From Ulva prolifera (lineage: Eukaryota; Chlorophyta; Ulvophyceae; Ulvales; Ulvaceae): a DNA stretch of 64,000 nt. A program made the position numbers and the translations under genes. The notes below the pieces were generated by a model. That model was not told the origin of the DNA. It made no database searches and saw only the letters and a program-made list of their open reading frames with translations. Within the stretch, counting starts at the first letter, position 1. Every line of letters starts with the position of its first letter. This document shows positions 1-22,405 of the stretch, piece by piece. Location of the stretch: the NCBI GenBank assembly GCA_023078555.1, contig CM041197.1:2700501-2764500 (forward strand). The letters are read 5' to 3'.

Positions 1-16
1 TATGGTTTGGTTGCAG

Positions 17-281
17 GGCAGTGGCCAGAGAGGAATTTCAGGAAATGGTGGAACATACAGCAATCAAAGCTTCGCGAGTGCCCATCTTGATCCTGGCGAA
101 TAAGATGGATTTGCCAAAGAGCATGCCACATCAGACTATAGCTGAGGCTCTAGATCTGACAGGCAGCGCCCTGAATCATGCTTGGAAAGTGATGCACTGC
201 TGTGGCCTGACTGCAGTAGGTGTTCGGGAGGGCTGGGACTGGCTGGTTGACCAGATGAAGCGTGGCAACGGGAATCGCTAG
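17..281 (+). CDS. ARF/ARL-family small GTPase, C-terminal exon (ARL6/BBS3-like), 5' part outside window
   Basis: This is the terminal exon of a Ras-superfamily GTPase of the ARF-like group. The window opens in an intron whose acceptor (ending TTGCAG) is at 11-16. The exon starts at 17, completes a split codon, and reads to TAG at 279-281. The guanine-specificity motif NKMDL is clear, preceded by a hydrophobic strand (VPILILA) and followed by the C-terminal helix ending EGWDWLVDQM. ARF-like proteins carry NKxD at this point, and NKMDL with a DWLxDQ end resembles ARL6, the GTPase that recruits the BBSome at the cilium base, better than ARF1 (NKQDL). The P-loop, switch regions and N-terminal amphipathic helix lie upstream of the window, so the subfamily is inferred from this fragment only. 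ARL3 is the main alternative. Confidence 0.75.
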
Positions 282-2547
282 CCGCCGCAGTTGGGTCAGC
301 ACTGTGGGCGCTTCCATCTGCTGCAGCCCATGTAGCGCCATACAGTGGACTGTCACAGCTGACAGCACGCAGGCGCTGTTGGTGGCTGAGCGTTCACCCT
401 CTGGCAAGCAAAGGCACATCGTTGCACGTCCGTTGAGGAACCCAGAATGCAGTGGTGGGCACAGAGTTCGGAAGTAATAGGTCAAAAGCTGAGCTCCTTC
501 TGACAGATGTGTGTATATAACCGTTTGGACATGGAGCAGGGTGCCAGAGCTGTCAGGTCACGCAAGGAACAACACCGAGCGCTGCCACAGTATCACCAAG
601 GTATGCTCGTAGTTGGGCATGGGGATGTTCAGTGTGCATGGAGGCAGAACAGCTCACTAGTGTTTGTGCGCCACTTGGCAGGACATCATTGTCACTCGCT
701 TGGAAGCAGTGCGTGGCATGCAATTGCGCCAGCAACATGCCACGAACATGATTAGCTTCGATACTGCTTCTGTTTTGTCCGTGTATCATGCATGGAGCAC
801 AGGCTTGATGAATATTCCTTTGCTGAGTACGATGCTCACGGTGACAGCAGTGATCTGAAGCAGGACAGTACAGTGTGCGGCACATGCACACACTGCCAGA
901 GTCCAATGGCAGCAGAAGTAGCCACTCGACAGCCTGGGGGAGCCTTAGGGACCCTTGGAACCCCATGTATTCAAGTAGAATGCTGCAAAGATGCGTGCAT
1001 GTTCTTGCGATCGAGAGGGCCAAGAGTTCACCAGCAGCTCAACCAGTCAAACCTAGGTATGCCTAGGTGTTAAACCTGACGTCGACCGAGCAGCATCGCC
1101 CCGAACTTGTATGAAGAATCCCGGTGTACATCATGATGCTCGAGATACGTCATGATGCTTTTCGATCGTCTCGACATCACCAAAGCTATTGGGTTTGTCA
1201 CCTCGTGCAGAGCGTCGGCCTGAAGCGGTGCGCTGCGGAGATAGCACAGTTGAGCGTTTGGGCGCACTATCGATGATGCGTGCTGCTGCATGGTAGCTCC
1301 AGGTCTTGGCAAACGTGGGCTGTTGAGCAGAACGATCTGCACACGCTAATCATGGTTTACAACGCGTTGCAACGGCGCATGTACCCGTGCCGCGAAGCAA
1401 GCAGCCCACACGCTCATAGATGACCTAGGGCTTTGCATGTGTTGAGCGCCTTGGCCTGGTTCTTGCAGATGACATGGCTGCAGCATGCTTGGTTGCAGGG
1501 ACAGTACCGCAGCCAGGAAGCAGCCGCTGCTCTGTTCTGTACGCCGTTCAACATGCTGCAAGCGCTGATACGTCCTAGGCCTGCCGTAGGCGACATCTTG
1601 TAGCAGCGTTCGGAGAATCCAGCGCGCCGTGGTGCAGCGTGTTGCACCTGCTGTCTGCTCACGTACAGCTGGCGCGGATCGCACGAGTCATGACCGTCAA
1701 GTGAGCTCTTGAGACGGTGCACAGGGCGTACATCGCAGCGTCGCATTTTGCCCTCAGAGGCAAGCGGCGAGCTCGCAGATGTGCGCGTGCCCGGCGCGCC
1801 TCCATGGAAGTCACGCAGGCATGTGCATTCTCGCGGCGGATCATGAGCATCCTTTTTTGGACGGCACTGATACGCGCCACACAACATCCAAGCAGCTCAT
1901 ATATACTTACGATTTTACCAAAACAATATTCAATTTAAGTTTCCGATACCTTAAAAGGTTGATACGAGCAGGATAACATCCGTTTCCAGCAAGCTGCCGG
2001 AAGAATCGACCCTGTGCCCCGCGCCGAGGGCTGAATCGCAGAGGAAGAAGCTTGAAGCTTGAAATTTGCATAAGTAAAGTGGTGCGTGCGCCTGATACCG
2101 CTGGATGGCTTGCGCATGTCGCCAGGCTACGTCGTGTGCTCGATACCCGACACGGCCGTACCATGTGGCCAGCTCTTGCACTGCTCACAAGAAGGCAGTT
2201 GAAAGTTTGAATGCACAATAGAAACTATCCTAGCCTATGGCATTCTCGCTACCGTGAGCTCCGGAGCAGCGGCTTGATGCACACTTGGACGCTGGATTCC
2301 ACGTCAGCGTTCGACTCTGTACGTGTCCGATCGCATCATGCCTCGACCAAGCAGATTGTTATATCGTGTGACGTTCCAGCCCATCAGCTGGTATTGATGA
2401 TATTGGCTAGTTGCTCAAATCTTCGAGCCCAGATTCCGCCCACTTGGACGTGCGATGCTATATGCGCTCGCTGCCACCACCCGTTGATCGAGCTGTGTAT
2501 ACAGGCAGCACCACGTCGGATAGCAGCTCAAGCTCGAGTCATCATAC
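282..2547. other. Intergenic interval, no supported gene
   Basis: About 2.3 kb between the ARL6-like stop and the first transaldolase-like exon. Open frames on both strands are short, overlap one another and show no family motif. The palindromic string CTCGAGATACGTCATGATG near 1140 recurs in similar form elsewhere in the window. A short AT-richer stretch lies at about 1895-1960. I see no tRNA, rRNA or transposon domain. The promoter of the downstream gene presumably lies near 2300-2540, but I recognise no element. Confidence 0.5.
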
Positions 2548-5297
2548 ATGAGTAAGTTCGTATCCAGAGGCTGCACCAAAGATCTACATCAGCATGCCAT
2601 CCGCAGCGAGGTCAAGCGTCATGCCACGGCGCTCCAGCGGCGTATGGACAGAGCAAAACTGCGCAGCCCAGCCACACAGCTCGGTGAACTGCGCAAGTTT
2701 ACTCCAGTTGTGTTAGAATCAGGTGTGCATCCTACCTGGATTCCGGCGAAATGCCTCCATGGGCATGAATGGGCCACTTTTCAGTCACAGTGCTCTATTT
2801 CAGAAAACTGCGTGTGCTGGATCAGCACACGCAGCACTGTCACAGCGCTCGCCTCGCCCAGCCAAAATGATTTGGCATGTCTAAGCTTGACGCTATCATG
2901 CTGCATGGCGGTGTATTTTGCTCAACATCGGCAGAGTTTAGCTCTGCCCCTCATGGACCTGCCTGGACGAGCACTGTTACCGTCCGGGCAGCTGTATCTG
3001 TGTGCACAGATCATGCACTGTGTCCTTGTAACACAGATCATGCACTACTTGCCTCATTCACCTGCCACACACACACATCACCAGCGTGTCTCTCAGCGCC
3101 AGTCCACGATGCCAAAGCCATCACCACCACATAATCGCTGGCTACTGCTGTGCAACAGGTCAACTTTCCTGTACATCCCTCCATGGCTACACACAGGCGA
3201 ATGTAGAGCGGTGAACAAGCCCCAGCCAGGCATCTTGTGAGCCTAGGCAATCTCAATTTACAGGACAGTCAGGTCCAGCAGCGTCGAACACATTGACCAC
3301 CGGAGAGTGTTGCCTGTGCAGCTGACGCCTCGCGGGTGTCCCGGTACTGCCCCGATGGCTCCACCATCTCCCCGTCGCTGCTGCTCGAGGTCCTCGACCT
3401 GCCAGAGTACGAGCTCATCATCAAGCAGGCGCTCGAGGACGAGGCGAGCAGCCCGGAGCTGCTGCACAAGCGCTTCCCCTACGCCGGTGCGCCACCACAC
3501 ACCGGCCTCGCGCCGCCGCCGCAGCACACCCGCCTCATTTATTCGGCCGTCAACAAGCGCACCCAGACATCCACTGCAGGAGCCGGCGTGCGGTGGATGT
3601 CTGGGTGCCCTTGTACGCGCAGAGGCAGAACGGCGCGGCACAAGTAGCCACACCAGCAACTCTGCACCTGTGCACATATGTGTCACAACGGCAAAGCCGC
3701 AGCGGCAGGTAGCACCGGAGCAACCGCGCGCATCATGCATTCACCCGTGCATGCATACGTATCTCCTCCCGTATTCGATGTGTGTTCCACCCATGCTCCG
3801 GGTGGGGAAAAAGAAGCAGCTGTGTCGTGCGGGTGCAGGCGTGGCTGACCGCGTCGCGGCCGGCATCGGCGGCAGCCTGCTTGACGCTACACCCGGGACG
3901 CTGACGACGGCGTGCGACCCGCGGCTCGCGCGCGATGTCGAGGCGCAGATCGATCGCAGCCGCCGCCTCGTCGGCCTGCACGCCTCCCGTGGCCACCACC
4001 GCCGCGTCACCATCACGCTGCCGGCGACGTGGGAGGGGCTGCAGGCCGCGGCGCAGCTCCGCCGCGACGGCATTCCCACCAACATCGACCACGTCTTCTC
4101 CGTCATACAGGTGCGCCTATGGCCACGTTCCAGCGCAATGTGGCTGCACGGGCACTGAGGCCGCCGCGAGAGCACCCCCCACCTGCGCGTTGCGTTGCAG
4201 CTTCCCCCCACACGCTCCGGCCCTGGCCGGAAACTCCCCGGGGCCCGCCGCGACGGCGCACGCATGCATGCAGGCCGCCGCAGCCGCAGACGTCAACCCT
4301 ACGACGATCACTGCAGTCATGCACACCCCCCCGGCCGCTTCCGCGGTCGTTGCGCCCCACCCCGCCGTCCTCCATGCGGCCGCTTCGTCCGTCGACCTGG
4401 ACAGCACGGACTTGTCGGACGCAGGAGTGTGCGACAGCGAGGCCGTGGAGGCTGTGCGGCGGGTGTACCGCTACTGCAAGCGCCACGGCGTGGCTGCCCG
4501 GGTGGCGGTGGCGGGCGTGCGCACGCTCACGGAGGCGCGGGCTGTGGCCGGCGCCGACGGCGTGGCCGTCTCGCCGCGCATCTTCCGCCAGCTTGTGAGC
4601 TGCCCCGGCCCACTGCAACGGGAGCTGGAGCCGCTGGCAGCATATGAGCTCTGCACGGACGAGGTGCGGGCACGCTGTGTGCTGTGTGCTTTGATGGTGA
4701 TGTCTGACATGTGCCTGCGTTCACGTGCTTGTTCAGGCTGTCGAGTGCTCTCAAGATACATCATGCCTACGGCCCCCCCGAACCTGTGACGACTGCATTC
4801 GAGCCATGCGACCCAGTCATCGATCCTTGTGTCGTGTGTGCTTTGCCACGGTTTCACCCGGACACAGCCCGTGAGGCAGAGCAGCCTGTGTGAGGCCTGC
4901 ACAGCATGATGCCTCGCCCGCAGCATATTATGCTGGGATGTGCAAGCGCCATCACACACCGCTGTGCCCACGATCGCGGTCTGACGACGCATCTCATCTG
5001 CCCAGCAGCCGCAGCTCCTCTACACAACCCACCCCCCACAAACGCATCGTCTCCTTGTGCATGCATGCAGCGCCCCTTTGCTGACGACCTCATCCGCGCA
5101 TGCAGCTGGCCACGTGCACCTCGGAGGAGGCCTTCCGGCAGATGCTTGCGGCGGACCCTGTAGCCACGGAGAAGCTGGAGCGCGCGCTGCAGGCGGCGGA
5201 GGGGGCCCAGCACGCGCTGGAGGCGCGGCTGCGCGACAAGGCCGCCGCCTGGAGCATCCCGCTGCTGCCGGCGCGGCCCCTCGTGTACGCTGACTAG
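2548..5297 (+). CDS. Transaldolase-like protein with replaced catalytic residues, five exons
   Basis: Exons 2548-2722, 3322-3486, 3839-4110, 4274-4663 and 5106-5297 join with matching phases (1,1,0,0) into 397 codons plus TAG. The protein aligns along its length with class I transaldolases: LRKFTPVV near residue 48, DGSTISPSLLL (about 70-80), a GTLTTACDPRL segment (133-143), LPATWEG (174-180), DGIPTNIDHVFS, and RVYRYCKRHG followed by a GADGVAVSP segment. Transaldolase transfers dihydroxyacetone units in the pentose phosphate pathway through a Schiff-base lysine. Here that Lys is Thr173 (codon ACG), Asp17 of E. coli TalB is Glu57, Asn35 is probably Ser75, Glu96 is Ala138, Thr156 is Asp197, and the phosphate-binding FVGR motif is not recognisable. 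The fold may remain, but ordinary catalysis looks impossible. The start at 2548 is the first ATG of the open frame; Met33 (2644) is an alternative, and the N-terminal 40 residues could be a targeting peptide. Confidence 0.8.
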
Positions 5298-7537
5298 GCC
5301 GCCTCCGCGCGCCCCGCGGCGCATGCGTGCGCAGCGGCTGTACCGCTGCGCCACGCGGCGCAGATTTTCCTGTTGCTGATGTGCGGGACCGCTGGTTGGG
5401 GTGGCTCGCGCCGCCACGCCGAGACGAGGCCTCTTGGAGGAGGTCCTGCGCGCGATGGTGTACCTGCCCCTACCCGCTTGTGGCGTGCCGAGGGGATGTG
5501 TGCAATGTACCGCCAGTAGGCTTCGCTGCAGTGTCTTTGAGCATGCTATGCTGGTGGAGATGTGCACTCCATGCCTGCCCTATTTTCTGTTTCGGTCGCC
5601 TCGCAGGGGCGACATTCCAATCCTAATGCGCTGTGCCCACATCCCGGAGCTGATCAGTTGTCATGTTGGTTTATAGTATACAGAAGAGCCGTGATATGTA
5701 GTGATGGATGTGTTGGTAGAGGCGGCCGCAGGCGGCGTATGCATCTGGCTCCCACGCTCTGCATGATGCCCTCGCCCCGCAGCTCCCGCCGGGGCTGCTC
5801 CTTTTCCTTGCTTGAGGCTGAGCGTGAGCGTGTGCCAGCGTTATTGGTGCCGTGTTGTAGTGTGACGCGAGGTGACGTGCTTGTGACCGGCTGCAGTGCC
5901 GCTCCATGAGACTTGGCTGCCGTGCAGCAGTGGGTGTACATGAATATTCGTGTGGCGGTCATGCCTCGTCGTCGCATGTAGTTCTCCACATGGGAGTGTG
6001 ATGTGGCCAGGGGCGCTGCACTGCGGGGCCCCCGGGGGCCTGGTCTGCCCAGCCACGGCATCTCGGAGAGATGCGCTACAGCGGGCCGGCCTGTTCCAGC
6101 GCCAGGGCGGCGGGAGTAGAGCTGCGTGTCACCACAGGCTGGCCGGCTGACCACAGCACGCAGCACGCAGCAGCTGCCTGCGGCGGTCGCCATGCGAGAG
6201 TGTCAATCAGCTTAACAAGCAGCCCTATACTCAGCTTTGTTCCTAGTTTTGGCATGGTGGAGGTTTGCTAGTGCTGTCTGATGATTTTGATAAGCAGCCG
6301 TACAACGCAACTTTACGTTGTGTATGGATATGGTCGGATACGTGGCATGGCCGGCGTTACACGGCGACACGACTCGATGGCCGCTTGCAAACGTGAAACA
6401 ATCTCAGATCACGCTATGGCGAAGACTGCTGAACTAGCGTGGGGAAGGCGTGTCAGGTGGTCGCGGCCGAGCCTTGTGGTGAGATAAGGCCATGCATCAG
6501 ACTGTGCCATTTGCACACTTGCATCCGCAACATGTACCCGGCAGCTGCACCTCGGCGGCATCAGCCTGTGGTTGTGCCGATCAAGTCCAGCAGGCACTGG
6601 CAGAGCCGTTGGCACACCTGCATCGTCTCGTGTGGGTTGCAAATAGCCATATCATAAACAAGTCTCACATACGATCGGAACATCCTGTGAAGTTTTGTTG
6701 ACGCCGTTGCAGTTTGTATTCCCTTATGCCGGGTGCACACAGCCGGTGCTCGTATGACACTCAGATGGTGCATGTGTGCCGAGTGAGTACATTGTTTCAA
6801 CGGTAATGGCATAAACATTGGCACTGGTGAGGCACTAGCCAGATCCCAGGACGCTGTAGCAAGCCCGTTCTGCTTCGAGTCACCAGCAAGCACCGACCAT
6901 GCATATGAATGAAGCAGCACAGGCTCTGCCACCGCATGCATCTGAGCCATGGTTGCGACGTTACACACCGGCTGTGGTGCTTCACACCGCGAGCCCGCCG
7001 CCGCACAGGCATGAATCAGGCGCAAATCATGCGGGGGGGTTTCATACATAAGGCCCGGAGGCACCTGCTGTCAAAAGCAGCCACCGCAGAGCAGTGGCTC
7101 ACACAGCACACAGCACGCACGCAAGGGAAGGGGGGCCAACAGGCGCAAAAGCCCTCAACGTGCTCTTGACGCAGTTCAGTCCCAAATCGGACCGATTTCT
7201 GCAAGCCTCAGATTGGAAAGCGGCGCTGGCTGCGCTGGCTGCAGCAGCGTTGCATATTTGCGATCCGGCTCGTCATGTGTTCCCGGGAGCGTCCACCGAC
7301 GCTCAGCGGAGACCCGTGGCGCACGCCCGCTCTTCTCGCCAGCCTCCGCAGTCCACAACGACCTCAAAACAGTCCAGAACAGGCTGCAAGGCTTCCATAG
7401 TCGCAAAAACAAGGCTGCGGGCACCCCGGCGGTCTTTCCCGGTCTCCCCATACATGCATACCGGGAGCGCCCGCCCTCAACAGGTGAGTCAAAACATGTG
7501 TGCATCATAGTCTCGATGAGACGCGGCCGGCGTGTGG
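5298..7537. other. Intergenic interval between convergent genes, nothing recognised
   Basis: This lies between the transaldolase-like stop (+) and the receptor kinase stop (-), so it should hold two 3' ends. A 179-codon minus frame at 5654-6193 is Arg/Ser/Pro-rich and matches no family I know, so I do not call it a gene. No TGTAA polyadenylation signal (the usual chlorophyte form) is evident close to either stop. No RNA gene seen. Confidence 0.5.
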
Positions 7538-10500
7538 CTACCGGGGCGATTTGTGGCGTAGGGGGAAGATCTCGTTGAGCTTCTCCTCGGTCGTCATCTT
7601 CTGGAGCGCCTCCTCGCTGTACACGCGGCCGTCGGCGCCGCGCGCATGCATGGTACCACGCGGCGAATACCACACTTTCCCGCCCTTGAGCAGCACCGCG
7701 TCCCGTGCAGCGGGCTTAGCGCCCGGCAGCATGGAGGGCTTGCGCGACGGCGCAGGCGCCGACGGCGGCGGCGGCGGCCGCGCCTGGTGTGCTGGCGGCG
7801 ACGGTGCGACCGGCGCGCTCGCGCCGCCTCCGCCCCCGCTCTGCGGCGGCAAGGCTGGGCCGCCTCCGCTCGAGCCGTCGCTGCCCGGCCGCCCCGCGAG
7901 CGTGTGGCTCGACCCAGAGACGACATGCATGCCGGCGGGCGCCGGCGCGGCGCTGCCGCCTGCGGAGCGTGTCGAGCCGGAGGTGCCGGAGCTGTCTGGC
8001 CGCATTGGCAGCGCGTTCCCGATGCGCTTCAGGATCACCTGGTTCGGGGGGTCACCCCCTGCGAGGGAGCTCGAGGTGGACTGCGGCCACGGTGACGTCG
8101 CCTCCATCTTGGCCTCGAGCCTCAGGTCGAACGAATTGTCGGCCATGTCATAGAAGGAGCTGTTAACCGGGTGGTTGACAAAGGTATACTTGTCTGCACA
8201 GCACGGCCACACACGTCATGCATGCGCCGGGCGCGGTGCATCTGGTGAGTGTGTTGGGCACAGCGCGGCACGCTGCCGGGTGATGCCCGGCCACACCCCG
8301 CACAAACTGTTGCATGCATGCGACTGAGCGCACGTAGGCCGCCGCGCTGGCGCACGCCCGGCTGCAGCACTGCAGGGGTGCGGGGTGCGAAGAAAAGCAT
8401 GCAGGCACGGGGCACAGCGGGGATGGAGGAGTGCCGCATTGGAGGAGGGGTCTGGTGGGGGCGCACATGGGGACGCCTCCTCCGCGGACGGCTCCTCATG
8501 CACGGTCGACATGACGTCGTCGGGGTGCTCCGCGAGGGGATTGTCCGTGATGCGCCGCCCCTGCCGCTCCTTCAGCAGGCCCGCGATCTCTGCACCCAAG
8601 CCACACAGCTCAGCCAACAGACCGCACCATACAGCGCCACACCGCGCTGCGTGCTCGCGCAAGTAGCTCCCGCAGCTGGGTCAAGTCGCATCACAGCCGC
8701 GCTGCGCGTGCTGCGTGCTGCGGAGAGAACAGCTGAGGTCAAGAGATCACGGCGGTGTGTGCGTGGCAGCGAGGGCGCGCACCGGTGCCATCCATGTCCT
8801 GCTCGCGGCGCTGCGCCTGCAGCCGCGCGAGCGTCTCGGCGTTGAGGCCGTCGAGGAGGGCGTTCGAGATCGGCGCCGGGGGCTCGCCGGGGTTGGGCGG
8901 CATGACCTCGATGATGCCGAGCTCGTACAGCCGCATGTTCTCGAGGTACTCCGGGGGGAGGTCCTTGCGGCGGCTCGCCATGTTGGACATGCTGAAGGCC
9001 GTCTTGAAGAAGGTGATCGACAGCGGCTCGTGCGGCATGCCGAGCTCGATCGAGTCGCTGACCGAGTCTGCCGCCTGGCTCTGTGTGTTGGCCGCGCTGC
9101 TGCTGCCGTCACACCGCGCACCCCGCCGGAACCGGTCGTCGATCAGCCCCGCGTCCTACACGGCGGACTTTGCTGAGCACATCACAGAGCGCTTGGGGTT
9201 TGGCGCGGGGCGGTGTTGGTGCTGCGAGCGATCAACGCACAAATCACGCATCACACGCGGCATGGCGCCGTCGCGCGGCGTGCGCAGGCTCGTTCGACAC
9301 GGAAGAAGTGGGTGTGTCTGCTCCAAGGCGAGGGGTTTTTGACAAAACGATGCATTCTTCTCATCCCTCAGGTGGGGAAGGGTGCGTGCCTGCACTCGGC
9401 CGGTCGAATCGACGTAGGACCCCTTGGACACCTCCTTCTGCAGGTCGGCGAGGAGCTGCAGGATCTGCGCAAACGACGGCCGCTCGGTGTGCTTCTGGCT
9501 GAGGCACGCCTTCATCGTCAGCGCGAACGTCAGCGGCACCTGCGGGCTGAGCGTCGGGAAGTCAGGGTGCGCCGTGTAGCCGTCCGCGCCATCCGCCGTC
9601 TTGTTCGAGTCGTTCGTGTCCGCTCTGCACATGCGCCGCTCACCTCACACCAACCACAGCACACACTCCCCCCCCCCCCCCCCCTTATGTGCGGTCAATT
9701 CCCAGTCTCACACACATGTTTCAGATGGCCACTGCCTCCAGCGCACGGCACAGGAAAGCCACGCGGGGCCGTGCAGCAACCGGATGCGCTGCGGGCAGCA
9801 TGCGGGCCGGGCGCAACGAGCCGACGGATCGTGCACGTGCGGGATACCGTCCTCAAGATCACCCATCACAGCAGCCCGCGGCCACAGCAGCCACCACCTC
9901 TTGCAGGCGGCGGCAGGGCCGATACGGCTGGAACGGCGACAGGGCAGAGCCAACGGCGGGGAGGCGCCGAAAACCACGATAAACAAGCCGAGAGAGCGGG
10001 ACGCACGGGACGATGTGGTACACCGGCTCACCGCGGAAGAGCTCCCACATGATGACGCCGAAGGAGTAGACGTCGCTCGCCTGGTGCAGGCGGTGCAGGC
10101 GCGAGACCTCGGGCGCGATGTAGAACGGCGTGCCGACGCGGATGTTGGACTTGTGCGTGCGGTCGTGCTGCATGCGCATCGCGACGCCGAAGTCCGTGAT
10201 CTTCGCGGTCACGATATTCCGCCGCAGGGACTCGGAGAGCGTCACCTCCTCGCGGCTCTCCGTCTGCACCGCAGCACGCACCCTCAGCACGCCCGCAGCA
10301 CGCGCCCTCAGCACGCCCGCAGCACGCACCCTCAGCACGCCCGCAGCACGCTACGCCAGGAAAGCAAAAAATAAAAAAGGAGGTCAAAGAGCGTTGCGAC
10401 AACGAACGATCGGACGAAACGGCGCGGCGGAGCACAACTAGCCTGCACCCTGGAAATACGAAACAAGCAGGTGGATTGCTATGGCGATCATCACACATAC

Positions 10501-13500
10501 AAAATAGACGCGCTTCATCTTGGAAGGGGCATCAGCCAGACCTGGCATAGCCTCGTCATACATGCCTAGGGGGCGCCGCGCCACACGTGCGCATCCCCGG
10601 CTCTGCTGCCGCAGCACACAGCACAGCACACGCCCACCACACCGACGCGGCTTCAAGCGCGCACAAGCAATCCCCGGTGCAGTCGGTGGCCACAGGTGCT
10701 CTACGGTGGCTACAGGAGCCGATGCACACCTTGAGGAGCACGTTGGCCGGGTTGAGGTCGCCGTGGCAGATGCGCTTGGAGTGGATGTAGGCCATGCCCT
10801 GCGCGACATCGATCAGCAGTGACATCACACTGCGCCAGTGCCGCTCACGGCTCGGCGAGAAGTAGTTCTTCGCGACCGCCTGCCGCAGGCTCCCCCCGTT
10901 GCAGTACTCCTGCACAGCACGCAGCACGCGTCACACGCTGCGCGCGCCGCTGCGCGAAGAGCGCGCACGCTCTCCATCGACAGCGTGAAGAGCATCTGTT
11001 TTTCCTCACGTACGGCTCTATGTTCCCAGCCCAGAGACTGCGGCCGCGTGTCGAGCTGCGCCGACGCGCCACGCACAAGCCACATGGAATTCCGCAGGAC
11101 CCGCTACGTTGGCTAAAGCGGTCGTCCACAGCATACTCCTCGGACCACCAATACGTAGCAGGGCAGCAGGCTGTATCATGGATGCATGCGTGTCACATGC
11201 ATGCATCCCATGTACTGCGCCACCAGGCGCACCTGCAGGAGGTAGAACTTGAAGACGCCCTCCTCGTTGCCGACGCCGCCGCACATGAGGCTGCGCACGT
11301 CGTGGCAGTAAGTGGCGACGACGTTCTTGTGGAAGAGGTTGCTCGCTATCGCGGCCTCGCTGACGATCAGCGACGACTGCGTCTGGTCGTCGCCGCCCTG
11401 GAACACGACCGTCTTGATCGCGACCGGGATGCCCTGCCACTCCCCTGCACGCGCCGCCGCTCCCCGTTCACCCCTCAGCCACCACGGCTCTACCGCGGCC
11501 TGGGGCTGCAGCTGTGAATCAATGCGCAAGCAAGCCGACAAGTGGCGCACTCTTCAGCGCAGCGAAATTCTGATGAGGAAAGCACCGCAAAGAACCATCC
11601 ATTCACGTCGCGCACATATGCATGTGATGAGTGCACCAGTGCAGCTGCAGTGATGTCAGTTCGCAGCAAAGCACAGCACGCGAGGCGGCAGCGCCCCCGG
11701 ATGTGTTTGAGCGGCCGCGCACCATGGTACACGGTGCCAAACGCGCCCTGGCCGAGGACGTGGTGGATCTTGAGGTCCTCCTCCTGCAGCTCCTCTTGTA
11801 GCTGCGCCTGCATCTCGCTCACCGCGTTCTGGATCTTGCTCCGCATGCTCGACATCAGGAACTCGAGCTGCTGACTCATGCCGTCGCTGCTGCGGCCGCT
11901 GCCGGGCTCGATCACCTCGCGGCCGCGCCCCCGGCCGCCCGGCGTCGTCGTGCAGGGGCTCTCGACCGCGTCGAACTCGGCGACAGCGTGGGAGATGCCG
12001 ATCGGCGAGGACGCGGCGGCCGCGGAGGGCGGGCGGTGCGCAGCGTGGGTGGCTGCGCTGCGCGGCTCGCCGGCGGCGCTGACGGTGGCGTGGCTCGAGC
12101 GGCTCTGCATGAAGTCCTCGGCGCCGCCGGCCTGTACAACTCCCGGCCGATGAAAACACACCACAAGCCCTTGGGCCACTGTATGGTACAGCACTAGCGG
12201 CAAATCACCTGGCATTGCAACCAACAGGCTCGATCCACACGAGAATCGCTTGTTTCCGGCCGGTGGGAGTGTGCATGTGCATGTTGGTGTTTTGCCAGTG
12301 CGGTGCTGTACAAGTGCTGCGCAGCCATGGTGTGGTGTTTGGTACGCCCGAACCCATGCACCTGGGCTGTGGCTTGAGGTGGCTTGCCTACGGCGGGGAG
12401 AAACAGATGTGCTGGTGGACAGGATCACGCATGCAGGGGTCACACACAGGGTTACGCATGCACACTGGGCTTGGCCCCATAAATGCAAATGAGTCGAGCA
12501 AGAAAGCACAGACGAATGGGTGAACAAGCAGATCCATAAAAGGTATATAGATCAAAGTCTCGCCTACTCATGTTGGCACCCACAGGGCTGCGCTACGCAG
12601 GGGGCCCATTTAGCTGCCCTCCTGCTTGGCTGCTTTTCGTTCACGGCACACTGAGAGTGCACCATCACTGAGTCATAAGCCTGAATGTGAAGCAAGTCCC
12701 ACAGGGACAAAGCTGAGGAGGCAAATAGTAGCAGTAGCTAGTCCTGTGGCATGCTTAGTAAGAAGTGAAGCCAGCAGAGAAGGTGGAGAGCAGTGCAGCT
12801 GTCACGACCCGATTTCAAATCTCGGTGTTCAAATTTCAAAAGTCGATAGGCAGTGCAGACTGTGTGGAGCAGAACAATGCAGCATTGCTGCATTATGCAA
12901 TCTCAATCATGACTGCTGCAATTTGCATCATGACTGTTGCAATTTGAAGTTGCTGCCTTACTGTCTGTGGCATAGACTCTAGGTGCATGGGGCAGGAGCC
13001 ATTGGCTTGCTAGTCTGGAGCAGAGCCTGCGGCTGCCACACAGCACAGCCAGACAAATGGCAAGGGTAACAACGGAGGCATGGAGGGGCCGCAGTGACAT
13101 GTGGGCGGTCATGCTGCGAGTCAATCGTGATCAAATATCATCCAGTTGGACTAGCCCGCCATGCCCGCCATGCCGCTACGCCGAGGCAGCTTGTTTACAG
13201 AAAAGTGAATGGCAATAGACAAACACAACAAAAGAGTCTGTTGCAAATCAACAGAACGCCGAGGCAGCAGAGCGGCCGTCAGAGAGGCGGTCGTTGAGGC
13301 GCACGCCGACGCACGACGCAACAACACCTCGGCAGCATGACTATGCAGGCGCTTCGATGCATATACCGGCGCGCAGCTTCTGCGGGGTGCGTGCTGCGAA
13401 GTTGACAGGAGATGCGAGATGCGGTCAGTGCGGTCACACGCCAACCTCCTGACCTTGCAAGCGCCACAGTACCAGAGAATCGGCCAGCGCGACCGTCAGA

Positions 13501-16500
13501 CCCTCTGACGAGCGCTCTCCATGGACACCGGCAACGTGAAGGGGACATGCATGCAAGCTTACGATGGCGCATCTTGGTCAACATATATGCATGGAAAATT
13601 ACGTGTAGCCCGGCGCGTAGGCACGCGGGCAAACGACGGGAGGACAGCGTCAGGATCAAGGCAGACTGGCAGTATTAGTTGTTTGGGGTGCTGCTGCAGT
13701 TGCAGGGGCGCCCGCTGCAGGCCACAGACTGAGATACTCTGTGCTGCCTTTGGTGGATTGTGCATGCCATCTGCACAGAGACAGATCAGCCATGCACATA
13801 TGCGTAAAATGCCAGCCCAACAAACGGATCCTTGGCGCACTCCGGTTTCTTCACAGCATTTCGCAGCCCATGGCACCTGCCTCCAAGCAATTCCTTCCGC
13901 ACAGCACTCCCAGCACGCAGCACACCTGCAGCCGGAACGACTCCTTCGCCGACTCCCCAGAGTACGCGTCCCCGTGGCCCCCCCGGCTGAAGGCGGACGA
14001 GGCGTAGAGCTCCCCGGCGGAGTCGACGGCGGCGGCGCCGGACTTGCTGCGCATCGGCGCGTGCGGCAGCAGCGAGAGGGAGCCGGGAGCAGCGCTGGGG
14101 GGCTGCAGTGCGAGGGCGCGCTTCGCGACCTCCTCACGCTTCCGCCGCCGCGACCGCCGCACGCAGCACATGCATGCGATCGCCGCCGCCACCAGCAGCA
14201 GCAGCACTGCACCCACCAGCTGACGTCAGGCGTGGCATGCGTTCACGCGCGCAATCGTGTGCGAGTGCCAGGCTGCGGCTGTCAGTGAACCCCCTGGATG
14301 CTCACGAGACCCACACAGGGGAGGGGCACCACAGGCGGCGCACTGCCCCCCGGCCCCAGCCTGTCCTTACATTTACAAAAACAATTATAGGTTTTGGAAA
14401 AATCACAAAAAAGCCCAGTGCGGGGCCAATATGGACTGTATGGCAGGGATGCCGGGGGGGAAGGCCCGGTGGCCGCTGCTGCAGACCAGCATCTGCGATC
14501 CTGGGTCTCAGTACTTGCAGGCATGGATCGCACGCGCAGTGGCTGCCCAGGCTGCAGCCCTCGGGAACACATCCCGGTCTCGAGGCACCCTGTGCTGATC
14601 CGTCTATCTGACTGCACCAACCACAACTGTAGGACGTTGGTGAGGTCACTGCCGCACACCTCACTCACCCAACCACCCCCACAGCCACACCAGCCCAAGC
14701 AACGGCATGCAACGCACCTCGCAGCACAGCATCGGATCTGAGCCAGACACCATAGCAGCGCTGGGCGATCCGCGCAGCGCACTGGGGAATTTTTCTGGGG
14801 AGGGGGGACACACATCGCCGTCATGCCGATTGAGGAGCGACACAAGCGCATGCATGCACGCAGGGGGGGGGGGGGGGGGGGGCGCACCGCCGCAGGCGAT
14901 GCCTGCCAGGAGGGACGCCGGCGTGCCCGAGCTGCCGCCGCTGACGTCATCCCCAGTTTCGGCGCCGGAGGCGATGGAGAAGGCCGGGGGCGAGCTCTGC
15001 GCGCTGAACTGTGCGCGCTGCGCGACGGTGCGGTCCGTGCCGCAGAACATCGTGCTGTTCATCACCTCATACCTTACCTGCACCTGCCGCCACCCGGTCA
15101 TGTGACGTGAATGGCATGCCTTCATGCATGCGCGGGGGTTCACGCACGCGTCGGGCCGGAGCGGGAACTTGGCACAGGTGAGAGTGCGGGAGGACGGGTG
15201 GGTGGGGACCGGTTTTTTTTTTCTTTTCTTATTGACCGCTGCCGTGCCCGGCGGCATATGCATGGGCGGTGTGCGTGGGAATCCGCAAGCACAGCACACA
15301 CAGCACACGAAGCACATCGCCTTCACGCAAGCCTCCTGAATAAACAAAGACGGGCACATGCACGTGCATGCTGGCGTTCGACACACGAAAAGGCAGTGAG
15401 CGGACTGGGGCCGGGGGGTGGCGGAGGGGGAGGGTGCGCACCTCGCTGGGGGCGCCGCCCCGGAAGGTGGCGAAGTACCAGTGGACTGCGGAGGAGGCCT
15501 TATCCGTGGCCACCTCGCCGAGCGCGAACGTGGCGTCGGCCTGCTCGGCGGCCAGGTCCGCCACGTACTCTTGAATCGCATACACGAACTGCATGTGGGT
15601 GGAGGCGTCGGCATGAGGAGCGGCCTGGTGATCCTCGCATAGGGGTGAGAGTATCATGGCGTTTGTCTTACTGAGGTCGGCCCTCCAGCACCCTCAGCAC
15701 CACTTAGACTGTGGATCAAGATGGGCGGGTATACATGTGGCTGGAGGGGCACCTGTGGAGGCCGCAGGCTGCTGCTGCTGATGACGACATCGGCCCAAAC
15801 AAACTTTGGGCCTGCCCAGCTGCAGGGGCAGCAGCTGAGGACACTGCCACACTGCCACGCAGCTGAGGACAGCTGAGGACACTGCTGCAGACACATAACA
15901 GACGCGCAATCATGTCACATAATCATGTCACACATGCTCAGGACAGCCAGGCTACAGATTATGGCCAGATGAGTTCTGAAGCATACGCAGTCAGAACCAT
16001 TTTCAGCTGTTAAGTAGGTCTGACTGCACATCCTTCAGCACTACTTGACAGCTGAAAATGGCTGTGTGCTATGCTGTGGCATCCTGTGAGCCGTGCTATG
16101 TGCTGTGCATGCTGCACACGCGTGTGTGTGATCATGTGTGCCCCGCAGCAGCTCGGAGGCTGGGCTGACTCTGGGTGCCACGGACGCCGTCTCGCCGGAC
16201 AAGATCTGCAGGAATCGGACTGTAGAACGGGGCTGTAGCACCAAGCAGCGGGTAGCGGCGTAGGCTATTTGGTCAAGGGCGCGCTTTGGGGCCGCGTCGG
16301 TATTGGGCACAGGGCATGACTCTTGGGTCGGAATAGACTGAAGACCACCTCGGCATGCACCCGCACCGTCCGAAACACGCATGCACTCATGCATGCCGCC
16401 CCGCCCCCAACAACACGCCTCCGCTCCTTCAGGGTCAGCTGGATCGCCCTGAGTGGCTGAGAGCTCGTCGTGTTGCAAGCCGCACAGGGCAGGCTTGCTG

Positions 16501-16888
16501 ACGTCGGTGTGTCGACAATAACAGACGTCACGAGCTCGGGCCATATCACGGCGGAGCTCCACACCAAAGTGCCACGCCACGCAACCAAACGCAGCGGTCT
16601 GAGCACAAGCTTGCAGAAGGGGGGGGGGGGGGGGAGGGGCGGACCGCGCATGCGTTGCCGAAGCCGAAGAGGGAGTTCACGACCTCGTGCTTCGAGCCGG
16701 CGGGGTTGACCGCGTCCGTGAGATCATAGTGCTGCAACACGCAGTCCTGGAAGCGCAGCACCGAGCCCGGGCCCATCCCGAGGCGGCTGCTTATGGCACC
16801 GTAGTCGAACGTCTGGCCCCGGCAGTCGATTGTTACCGAATGGTCTGACCCCAGGTCGAGGGGGCCAGTTAGACTCTCTCCCCATGAC
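7538..16888 (-). CDS. Receptor-like protein kinase: beta-helix-type ectodomain, one TM segment, TKL kinase; 5' end unresolved
   Basis: Exons in transcription order: about 16888-16645, 15588-15442, 15077-14888, 14206-13926, 12131-11723, 11444-11233, 10909-10730, 10263-10007, 9624-9396, 9155-8783, 8589-8467, 8193-7538 (TAG). Phases agree at every junction. The ectodomain exon has the VTIDCRG...FDYG...[13 protein letters not shown] pattern of beta-helix-like ectodomains in chlorophyte receptor kinases. The TM segment begins [15 protein letters not shown], followed by basic RRSRRRK. Kinase motifs: glycine loop GQGAFG; ATP lysine in VAIK; catalytic loop [12 protein letters not shown] (Arg of HRD is Gly, Asp kept); [25 protein letters not shown]. 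It therefore looks active on Ser/Thr (TKL class). The tail is about 380 residues, Ser/Pro/Gly-rich, ending [14 protein letters not shown]. The first exon(s) with signal peptide, probably at 16889-17600, could not be placed. Confidence 0.85.
10271..10352. repeat. 24-bp tandem repeat, about 3.4 copies, in a kinase-gene intron
   Basis: The unit GCAGCACGCACCCTCAGCAC plus GCCC repeats head to tail with single-base changes, immediately upstream (in the gene's orientation) of the exon starting at 10263. On the minus strand it reads GTGCTGC/GGGCGTGCTGAGGGT, the same GTGCTG-rich composition seen at the ends of many introns here. It looks like local slippage rather than a regulatory array. Confidence 0.8.
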
Positions 16889-19800
16889 CTGTAGCCACAG
16901 TAGCTTGAGCCTGCAGAGCTGTGACAAGGGGTACATGGCGAGGCGTGGCGCATGTGGGATTTACGACAACAAAGTCACGTAGGTCTGCGCTCTCGTGGGA
17001 GCTTTGATGACTGCAAATTTCCTCTGCGCCCCTTGCAGCTGCGATTCGTGCATGCGACGCTGTCAGGCGCGTGGGCTGGAACTGGGACAGAGAGTGGCGC
17101 ACTCGCTTGGCCCGAGGCACACTCGAGAGACAGCTCCTTGAGGCTGATCTGAGAGCTCGAACTGCATGGCTCGCATGTCAACCACCTCTCGACATTGGCC
17201 TGACTGGCCGTCCAGCAGGTCCCTGGTGGCGGTGGACACATCGGGGCGGATGCTCGCAAGCAGCAGCAGCGCTGCCGCACGCGCATGCGTGGCCTGTTGG
17301 CTAGAGACACGAATCGCTGTCATGCTGTCGTGACCGCCGTGTTGTGCTGCTTCGCGCTATACACGCAACAGCGTGCTTGACCGCTACGGCGGTTGTAGCG
17401 GAGCAGCGCTCCCTGCGATGACCTGTACGCATCCCAGAACAATAAGTACGCATATTTGGATCAAGCGCAGGTGCGTAGGATATCGCCTGCGTCCCAAGCT
17501 GCATCCGGAAAGACAAAAGCAGCGGCTGTCAAGCCTACACAAACAATTCATCCCGCAGCAGGTGCATAGCAGCAGTGAATAATGCACGTGGACTCTACTC
17601 TGTCGTAGCGCGGTCCCCTGTACTATCGGATGAGAAGCCCGGACAGCAACACGCCTCTACGCCTGGCCCTGCGCCAGCTCGAGGCATGCAGAACAAAACG
17701 GATCACGTACGCATGTCCATACCTGACAACAGCAGCGATTCAAACAGCTGAAGCGATTTCACGCAGATCAGAGAGATACGGGCGCGCATGCACCAGGCAT
17801 TCACTCAACGCCATGGTCGATGGCAATTCCACAGCAGAGCGCCAGCGCTATATTTCTCACAAAACTATGGCAGCTTACTTCGCTGCCATCGTGATAAAGG
17901 CATCAGTATTCTATCTGCCGCAGTCCCTATCGCGTATCGCTGTGTGCCGCGACGTGATCGTTCGATTCATTGCACGACGAGCTGAATTGAATGGTGCTAG
18001 GCGTACCAGGGAACTCAGCCTTGCTGTTCCAATCCCGTCAAATGTCCGTTGTTTACTTCGTGGGTGAGGCATGATTGCACATGACAGTCATGCTGGCATT
18101 ACTATATCATCATACGTCAAGAGAGCTGAATTCGCACACGATGCTCCATTCACAATAGAAGAGAGCGGTATGCAAATGATTTGGGGGCAAACCGTGTTCG
18201 TGGGAAGCGTATTGCTTGTTCTTCAGCCCTCGAAGTCGACCCTTGAGCATTTGCGAGATGCCGCTTTTGAGCAAGCAGCCACTAGCCTTATACTGCGAGG
18301 AGAACTTTCCATTAATTAAATTCTACAGTCTCTGCTCGTTTTGTGTACTTCAAGTCTCGATGGGTCTGAATTGACTCAACACGGGCAGCTGAACATGAGG
18401 GGCACTTCAGTGAAGGCAGTATCCGCACGCAAGCACACCGCTGCGCAAAAATAAAATAACAAAATGCATCATGGTGATGTGTGAGATGGGTAGTTCCTCG
18501 CAAAACAGCGTCGACACCGAGCAGAGCTACCTGCGTATGTAGGCATGTGTCACCTCCTCTGCGTCATGAACGTGTCTACAAGAAGCGCAGCATAGACATG
18601 TCCGCCCCGCGCAAGCCACGGCGTGACGACCCGCGACGCGTCACCGTGCGATACGCGCTATGGAATCCGGGAAATGCGGGCGCAACATGTTGCAACACTC
18701 GACACTCCCCCCAGTTCCAATTTGCGAGGCTCGTGCGTACACAAACTGGCCTGGGCTTCGAGCAGGGCAGATAAGGGGCAGCGATGGCGTGCCGACTGTT
18801 GAGACGTCGATGCTCCCAAGTCCAGCTACAACTGTCCCAACCTTGCAAGGCCTTGGCACCCCGCATGCCTGCACGACTCCTGCGGGTCATCATCTGCACG
18901 AGCGGCGCATGCGCATGGCGTCACCCACTGACTTTGGGGCTTGAAGTTGCACCTCACAGGCCGGCCTTGCGCGCAAGTAACAAGTTGCATGCATATGCAG
19001 GCCAGGTGCTGCCGGACTGAGGCATGTGCGCTGCTGCAGTGTTGCCCTACGGCAACGTGTGAGTGTGTGTGTGCGTGTGTGTTACAAGGACAAAGCAAGC
19101 GAGGCAGGTAGCACCGCAAGCAAGAAGCAGGGGAAACGCACACCACGCAGCAAGTCACACGAAGCGCACACCAGAGTGTGTGTGTGTGCGTGTGTGGCTT
19201 TTGATTCGGACGGGAGTCTGTTGCCGTGTTTGTCTATGCCCTTTTGCTCTTCTGTAATCACAAGATGCAGGCCAGCTCTGCGCACGACGTTGCATTGCTG
19301 CTGCTGCGCACGGCTGCCTACAACTATCTCGAGATACGTCGCATGTAATCACCTGGGCGCCCGTCACGAACTCATCCAGCTGCCACGCACGTTCAATATG
19401 GATCAAATCGTGCAAGACTCGGATCGGCGCAGCGCTGCATGCGGGCCGCGCGCGCCTTCGGCATGAAGGGCCGTCTATCGTGCATTTCGAAGCTCCATGA
19501 TCAGGAGCGATATCCGGAGGCCGCGTGGCACTGCGCGATCAGTAACGCGCGCTCCGAGCAGCCCACGCGGCCGACTAGATATATACAGGGTATACGTAGG
19601 CCTGCGATTGTATCTAGAGATACGCCTAGCAGTTGCAAGGCGCCAACGATCGGCCCAATGCGGCTGAGTTTGTTCACGGAGATTCCTGTGTTGCGTTTGT
19701 TGGCGCCCGTGCAGTGTCTCCTGAAACTTGCTTGAGTTTCTGGGTCAAAGCGAACAGCGCCTTCGATCGCGCATGTACATGTGTGCGTGAATGGCACACC

Positions 19801-22405
19801 GCCTGTGTTTGCTGAATTCACAGCTATCCTGCAGCACGTGCGGTGCACCACGCTGCTACTCTTGCCGCTCAAACGAGCTCTGAACCTGCGATCGCGGTGC
19901 ACGAAATTGGACCCGCTGCATCGCCGCGGGGAAGTGCACAGGACACCTCGAGCTGTCGCTCTCATGATGTGTGTGGTCGCCCGGGCCAGATGATTCGTCA
20001 TCACGCGTCATACTGACAGGCCAGCACAGCTGGACCATGCGCCGGCTGAACGCATAGCTTTTGTAACGCATGATGATTGGAGCTCCATGGAGGCGTGCAT
20101 TGCGTATGTAGGCCTGTACAGGCTGTCCCCACGACGCTCGCCAGGCTGCCTCATCCATGCATGTAGGTCACGCCGGCGCCTGCACCCAACGCCACTCCAG
20201 GACACTCCATTGTCATGACGAGCCTGTCCGGGAGACGAGTAAGAGTACATGACGAGCATGAAACGCGCTGGTGGCGCTACTCGCGACATGTCGAATGCAC
20301 CCGTAACGGGCCGTCATAAACTGAGCTCCTCGTGGTGAAGACCGGTCGTGGTTGCACCTCGATGCACGGCTGGCAGGGAATGCCTCGTAAGTACGTCCGT
20401 ACGTACGTCCGCGTGTATGCGTCGCAAAAATGGGTGCCCAGATGCGGTCTGCCACAGTCGTGCTGCGCAGCGCCTGACACCGATCGTGTTGTGCCTGCGA
20501 TGATGAAGAATCTTGAACGGCGCGCGGTACACACCACACCCGTCGCATCGGCCGCGCACATGCCGCGCAACACAGGCTCGGCCCATGCATTCGCTGATCT
20601 CGCGGCGCCGGCATCAGCTGGTAGGGCGGTCAACTTGCGGCAGTCGGCCGAGTGATGACAGGCTGTGTTTCAATAATCTCTCGGCATGAGCTGCACCATG
20701 CATGTGATGACTTACTTCATCGTCCAAAAATGGCCAGCGCCCTGCAGGGTCATACGGATATCCACTTCAAATTTGGGAGCATCCCAATCGAAGCGCAGAG
20801 CTCCCATGAGTTTGCAAAGTCATGTACTCGAGCCTGCAAGTACGCACATGTTGAATGGGACTGTTCCGGGTCAGCTTCTGGTGTTGCAGTCGGTAGAGGT
20901 GGATCGTATGTCAGTGGATTGAGCTGCCAGCGGGTGGTCGCCTGTACAGCAAAGTAAATCTGAATTTACTGAGCCGTATCATATTGGACATTGACAGCTC
21001 CGAGCTACAGGTACCACATATGCCGATGCCGGTGGCTGTGGGGGTGTGCCTTCCTGCCTCTCAGGTGGCGCTGGCCCTTATACGTACTGCACCTCTTTGT
21101 GTTAAAAACCCTGCGGGGTGCACTGACACCGTGACACAGCGGGTGCCTTGGTGAACTATGCAAGCGCATTGTGCTCAGGCAATATGTATCCGATCCAATC
21201 TGGCCATGCAGCATGCCAGCAGCTGGCAGCTACGCAACAGCTGTTGGCTGGAGTGTGTTGATCCAAGCAGTACCGACGTCCACCGAAACCACTGGCCACA
21301 TGCCAGGGATGGCCCGAGTGGATGACGGAATACCCATGCACATGTCATGTGAGTCTAGTACCTCCAGCCAACTGGCTCATGGCATATGCCCCGCTCTGCA
21401 ACTGGACTGTGTGTTTACTCAAAAATCAGTGCGCGTTGAGTGACCTTGTGAAGGGTCATGCCAGGCAGCCTCTGTGGTCCAGCAAAAACCAACGCAATTC
21501 CGTGTCTGCAGTTACCGATTCAACCGCTGAAGTCCACAGCCTTGGTGGTCAAACGTGGCACACGTTTCCATGAGCACCAGGCTGAGGCTGGTTTGCATGA
21601 GCACCAGGCTTGAAGAAGCTGCATGCGTGCAGCTCGATATGATCACACAGAGATGGCGTTGTGTGTCAGCACCTCTGGGCCCCAGAGTGTGGGCCCCAGA
21701 GTCACCTGAATTCCGTCGTTTTGTTCCATCTCGCACGCTCGCACACATTGACATACGAGAGAAGGTTGCTGAAGATAGCCTCGATGACGCCAGATGGTAG
21801 CATCTACAACGATAGGGGTATTGTGAGAACTCTATCATATGGTCATTTGAAGCAGTACGTGTGCTGGTGTGCCAACATCAACCTTTGCAGCACCACGCCC
21901 ATCTATGACCAACTGCCACACAATCAGAGGTGCTTGCACCAGAAATTCGGGAGCATGGCACCCCCAAGCAAGTTTGTGAACGGAAATAACCAAGCCGGCA
22001 AAGAGCAGGCCTACACCCCACAAACATCCATTTGAAGAAAACCCTCGAGTCCTTGTTATCTACTACTACACCTCAAGTCCCAACACAGGCAGAGGCACAG
22101 GGCCTGGCGGCCAGCTGCATGCATGCAGTGGGTCTGGTGTCCACGCGGCCGCCGCAGTGCACAGCACCACCCCCCCTCCCTGGATGCCCCCAACAACCCC
22201 ACGCCCGTGTCCACCCCCTCTCGGCTGTGCCTCATGAGCTCCGCATGCGTAAGCTGCAGCGCTGGCCCTCGCCCTCCAGCGGTCACCGCCAGTTGGCCGC
22301 GTGAGAGATCAGCGAAGGCCTTTGCCGTCGAGAAGCAGCCAAGGACGCCGCGGCAGCGATGTGCGAGCAGCGTGATGCAGGGCACACGCAGCAGAGGTGC
22401 GTCAA
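16889..22405. other. Long interval between receptor kinase and OYE genes, no confident gene
   Basis: About 5.5 kb. The first 700 bases should hold the missing 5' exon(s) and promoter of the receptor kinase; minus-strand frames at 16975-17310 and 17063-17323 are candidates, but neither has a clear leader or a splice junction that fits. From 17.6 to 22.4 kb, open frames are short and unsupported. Visible low-complexity items are a TG-rich stretch near 19055-19200, the palindrome TATCTCGAGATA near 19325, a GTACGTACGTACG run near 20390-20412, and a near-duplicated GAGCACCAGGCT string near 21574-21612. No tRNA, rRNA or transposase motif seen. Confidence 0.5.

Follow-up and report, generated by a model that had tools for sequence, protein, structure and literature searches.

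Transaldolase is described as an enzyme with a Schiff-base mechanism and a barrel fold (PMC3962226). According to PMC4407918, land plants contain TAL-type proteins, which alone were active in E. coli lysate, and TalAB-type proteins (At1g12230, PoTAL2), which were inactive; the same source gives green algae TalAB-type transaldolases only. In Chlamydomonas, PMC8927339 refers to two assumed transaldolases located in chloroplasts. Allosteric regulation, signal integration, scaffolding and competitive inhibition are listed as roles of pseudoenzymes in PMC10211241. A search of the open-access literature by titles and abstract openings found no description of a transaldolase pseudoenzyme, which is a weak negative at that depth; PMC7828330, the single paper in which both "transaldolase" and "pseudoenzyme" occur, mentions transaldolase in a reference only.

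We analyzed a stretch of 64,000 nucleotides, hereafter the window, which covers positions 2700501-2764500 of contig C2 in a genome of 88.9 Mb and 44 contigs. The genome has 38 exon-level matches to the chlorophyll a/b-binding family, as would be expected of a photosynthetic eukaryote. It contains a transaldolase-like gene at 2548-5297 on the forward strand that has no Schiff-base lysine and that probably encodes a pseudoenzyme kept in function. The gene consists of five exons encoding 397 amino acids, and its introns, of 599, 352, 163 and 442 bases, are all GT-AG and lie in phases 1, 1, 0 and 0. The exons are as follows.

Exon 1, 2548..2722, + strand: first in-frame ATG (putative start) to a phase-1 donor; N-terminal extension and strand 1 (LRKFTPVVLES); GC3 0.57
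Exon 2, 3322..3486, + strand: phase 1 to phase 1; GC3 0.96
Exon 3, 3839..4110, + strand: phase 1 to phase 0; barrel strands 3-5; GC3 0.90
Exon 4, 4274..4663, + strand: phase 0 to phase 0; strands 6-8; FVGR lost, additional residues past strand 6
Exon 5, 5106..5297, + strand: ends in the stop codon TAG; ADPVATEKL retained in the C-terminal helix

The frame runs through 397 sense codons with no stop, frameshift or damaged splice site. The same five-exon model had been proposed in an earlier note on this DNA, and it is borne out by the GT-AG borders throughout, the open frame and exon borders that are those of an intact paralogue described below. The coding-like codon use claimed there is also found, with a GC3 of 0.894 in codons 59-397 and of 0.596 in the pooled introns. 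Exon 1 is the weakest of the five: its GC3 of 0.57 compares with 0.85-0.96 in exons 2-5, and its alignment with solved transaldolases is limited to its final ~15 residues. The start codon and a transit peptide are therefore uncertain. Further along the window, positions 9862-10350 on the minus strand match Pfam Pkinase (E 5.7e-14) and belong to a protein kinase gene, which has no evident link to transaldolase.

The gene belongs to the transaldolase family, and a chance match is excluded. Its product matches Pfam TAL_FSA with 102.3 bits (cut-off 27; E = 4.1e-29), the match covering residues 55-375 and profile positions 2-284 of 285. Against the NCBIfam equivalog model talAB (TIGR00874) it scores 166.3 bits (E = 1e-48); this falls below the cut-off of 396.2 bits, which the catalytic paralogue passes with 409.3 bits. 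Using phmmer against solved chains, we obtained matches to 24 distinct sequences, with 3cq0 as the best (E 1.1e-36). The family assignment made earlier is supported by both profiles and by the solved transaldolases.

We compared the window protein with E. coli TalB at 12 positions that form the active site in the TalB literature. Glu57, Ser75, Ala138, Thr173 and Asp197 align with TalB Asp17, Asn35, Glu96, Lys132 and Thr156, and Thr217 lies at TalB Ser176. The first five equivalences had been drawn before from family motifs, and they are reproduced by alignment with TalB and with the solved chains; phmmer against the solved TalB chains pairs the same segments. The codons below were assigned by alignment, with positions counted from the exon table.

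Glu57 codon (TalB Asp17), 2716..2718, + strand
Ser75 codon (TalB Asn35), 3369..3371, + strand
Ala138 codon (TalB Glu96), 3910..3912, + strand
Thr173 codon, ACG, replacing the Schiff-base lysine (TalB Lys132), 4015..4017, + strand
Asp197 codon (TalB Thr156), 4087..4089, + strand
Arg287 codon, the phosphate-site arginine that is kept (TalB Arg228), 4520..4522, + strand

Three of the 12 positions are retained, namely Thr73 (TalB Thr33), Asn195 (Asn154) and Arg287 (Arg228), in agreement with the claim that most of the active site has been lost. The reported loss of FVGR also holds, as none of its four letters is kept and a short insertion is aligned there. Small residues stand in place of both Glu96 and FVGR. 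One detail of the earlier account was wrong: the Thr173 codon had been placed at 4038-4040, which is a few codons downstream of the actual ACG. Asp17, Glu96 and Thr156 form the acid-base set of TalB, and FVGR together with Arg228 its phosphate site.

All 12 positions are invariant in a catalytic-type set of 22 rows, composed of 20 full-length bacterial loci collected by BLAST alone with no motif demanded, TalB and the algal paralogue; the lysine, too, is present in 22/22. The same invariance is found in a motif-filtered family set of 21 rows, for which the lysine motif or FVGR was required. One bacterial locus of the 22-row set, L033, is without the exact FVGR letters, for which reason it is missing from the filtered set, and has the aligned F178 and R181. 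Of the columns with at least 95% conservation, 47 of 94 (21-row set) or 48 of 95 (22-row set) are retained in the window protein. The excess of loss at the active site, with 3/12 positions kept versus 44/82 other invariant columns, is not significant (Fisher p = 0.12).

Strands and helices were taken from a structure predicted for a bacterial homologue with TalB numbering (mean pLDDT 96.3). The window protein has ten lysines, four of which are in the N-terminal extension and six of which map to helices, with none on a barrel strand; thus, no migrated catalytic lysine is evident. Hydrophobic residues are retained at 16 of 21 strand positions and 64 of 81 helix positions of the homologue's predicted structure. 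Identity to the paralogue is 12/37 in strands and 77/176 in helices, so that the strands are seemingly a little more diverged. Class I aldol chemistry requires a pocket lysine. Since the window protein has no pocket lysine, Glu96 or FVGR, this chemistry is not expected of it, and we infer that it would be incapable of the transaldolase reaction.

A catalytic TalAB gene is located ~81 kb from the window gene on the opposite strand (C2:2787147-2789555, minus). It encodes 373 amino acids in five exons, and all of the active-site residues checked are present (12/12). Four introns are common to the two genes, with the same phases and at the same TalB positions (18, 71, 163 and 271). The proteins are identical at 142 of 370 aligned residues (38%), and exon 3 reaches 45% identity; their N-terminal extensions differ. 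The third intron of the paralogue has an apparent GC donor (CAG/gcacgt; 3000-3525 of the reverse-complemented locus), unlike the GT of the window gene. In a tree of 23 proteins the two form a pair (99/98), and their branch lengths are 4.56 (window protein) and 0 (paralogue). For this tree the program cautions against relying on long branches and flags an unusual composition of the window protein. The shared introns support a common origin independently of the tree. The window gene is an ancient paralogue of the nearby catalytic transaldolase.

Segmental duplication was also considered. The window plus 10 kb upstream (blastn) and 214 reading frames from window positions 1-20000 (tblastn) were compared with 40 kb around the catalytic gene, and nothing was found in common except the transaldolase exons and short repeats. 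With no shared flank segment beyond such repeats in this comparison, a segmental duplication is rejected, and the flanks fit an old duplication. A repeat of ~100 bases at window 19060-19173 occurs in several copies within the same 40 kb, at identities of up to 95%, and is probably a dispersed element.

A whole-genome profile search returned five exon-level matches that fall in three genes. When the window protein served as the query, all genome matches at E < 0.001 fell in these three genes (12 matches at E up to 10, the best candidates scored). When the bacterial and archaeal contigs were scanned with the catalytic paralogue, one bacterial gene was found; the viral contigs, scanned with the window protein, contained six candidate stretches, none of them related.

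The third gene (C9:4477743-4479601, minus) encodes a transaldolase-like protein of 402 amino acids in four exons. Like the window protein, it is without the Schiff-base lysine, having Gln182 where the lysine is expected, and it retains the equivalent of Arg228. Unlike the window protein, it has kept the equivalents of Asp17 and Glu96, and the residues retained amount to 5/12 of the active-site positions. Its three introns lie at TalB 43, 105 and 195, versus 18, 71, 163 and 271 in the window gene, and the two proteins share 95 of 352 aligned residues. It is possibly kin to the land-plant TalAB-type proteins reported as inactive.

We next consider whether the window gene is maintained or decaying. 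When the coding sequence of the paralogue was left to drift neutrally in simulations until identity had fallen to 37%, the mean number of stops was 6.9-8.0, and under each of the two compositions used 0/60 runs were stop-free. The window gene, at 38% identity, contains no stop. The same drift brought GC3 to 0.69-0.72, compared with the observed 0.894 in codons 59-397. At 0.1-0.2 neutral substitutions per site, 6/60 and 1/60 runs were stop-free at each of the compositions, so a neutral phase of more than ~0.1-0.2 substitutions per site is unlikely. Amino acid changes at 90 invariant columns have a mean BLOSUM62 score of -0.40 versus -0.84 and -0.86 under neutrality; simulations were as mild in 11/300 and 5/300 cases by this mean, and in 18/300 and 12/300 by the share of non-negative changes.

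A dN/dS comparison had been suggested earlier as a check. The codon model for the window gene and its paralogue rejects omega = 1 with a likelihood ratio of 94, but the GY94 dS is saturated and runs to a meaningless size, and the pairwise values pool both branches. By NG86 (327 codons), dN is 0.61 and dS is 0.88; their ratio of ~0.7 is again a pairwise value in which the two branches are mixed.

An unlikely reading of these data is that the gene is a decaying duplicate, long relaxed and recently dead or unexpressed. Its very fast evolution, seen in the branch of 4.56 against 0 for the paralogue, would fit decay, as would the NG86 ratio, the loss of about half of the family-invariant positions and the weak first exon. 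TGTAA is the usual poly(A) signal of green algae, and its absence within 1.5 kb past the stop codon of the window gene points the same way; in that interval the catalytic paralogue has three and the C9 gene none. Against decay stand the 397 open sense codons with four GT-AG introns, the high GC3 of codons 59-397, changes that are milder than neutral and the counts of stop-free simulations, by which a long neutral phase is unlikely. The combined evidence favours a loosely constrained gene that is retained for a function and whose protein is presumably made and under selection. The open frame, the codon model, the drift simulations, the residue losses, the tree and GC3 lend good support to the description of the gene as a non-catalytic homologue and not an obvious pseudogene.

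We find it rather improbable that the product is a different lysine-free enzyme, in which the barrel would have been refashioned to carry out some other reaction with a phosphorylated or polar ligand, through new pocket residues such as Asp197 and Glu57 together with Asn195 and Arg287, which are retained. The pocket is indeed altered and not emptied, as it contains the polar Glu57, Ser75, Thr173, Asp197 and Thr217 in addition to the three retained residues, and TIM barrels often switch chemistry. However, no new motif is recognizable, conservation of the polar replacements is not known from any relative, and the places of Glu96 and FVGR are taken by small residues.

An artefact, in which wrong exons or a base error mask a normal transaldolase, is extremely unlikely even though genomic sequence is the sole source, since a six-frame motif scan of window 1-14000 found neither the lysine motif nor FVGR on the gene's strand (four loose matches, all on the opposite strand at 6222 or beyond) and hence no alternative exons that restore them, the exon borders match those of the intact paralogue one for one, nine separate active-site differences are more than one miscalled base (ACG for AAG) would produce, and the genome already has an intact catalytic gene.

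The window gene thus combines demonstrated family membership, an intron structure shared with the paralogue, loss of the catalytic residues and an intact reading frame. We consider it likely that it encodes a maintained pseudoenzyme and arose long ago by duplication of a catalytic TalAB-type transaldolase gene; its product would have lost Schiff-base chemistry, with its lysine, and most of the sugar-phosphate site, and would have kept the barrel as a scaffold. Such a pseudoenzyme could act by binding, either as a hetero-dimer partner or as a modulator of the active transaldolase; alternatively, it could serve as a sensor of phosphate ligands through the retained Arg287. A binding role of this kind, as partner, modulator or sensor, would be its most likely mode of action.

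More speculatively, photosynthetic eukaryotes may keep dedicated non-catalytic transaldolases, with two TalAB-type genes of this genome having lost the lysine separately (to Thr and to Gln), and the window protein may serve the active transaldolase in the plastid, either as its regulatory partner or as a sensor of sugar phosphates; we hold this wider proposal to be possible but doubtful. If the window gene is expressed and conserved, it would represent a transaldolase pseudoenzyme in a pathway tied to the Calvin-Benson cycle, and a test case for why plants retain TalAB-type proteins that are inactive in lysates. Without conservation, the gene would be an ordinary, fast-evolving duplicate.

Comparison with known systems places the window protein in the same family as E. 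coli TalB (e.g. 1onr), with 92 of 316 aligned residues identical, and apart from it in function-related residues: TalB has Lys132, Glu96, Asp17, Asn35, Thr156 and FVGR, and the window protein is without all of them. The second-best match among the solved chains, 1i2o, has Ala at the Glu96 position, as does the window protein with Ala138. A non-catalytic transaldolase homologue had been called unusual in the earlier note; the reading as a non-catalytic homologue stands, and "unusual" is tempered by the second lysine-less gene in this genome and by the inactive TalAB-type proteins that PMC4407918 reports from land plants. These proteins, At1g12230 and PoTAL2, are TalAB-type and inactive in lysate, and they provide a precedent for the window protein, to which we liken them by description (PMC4407918).
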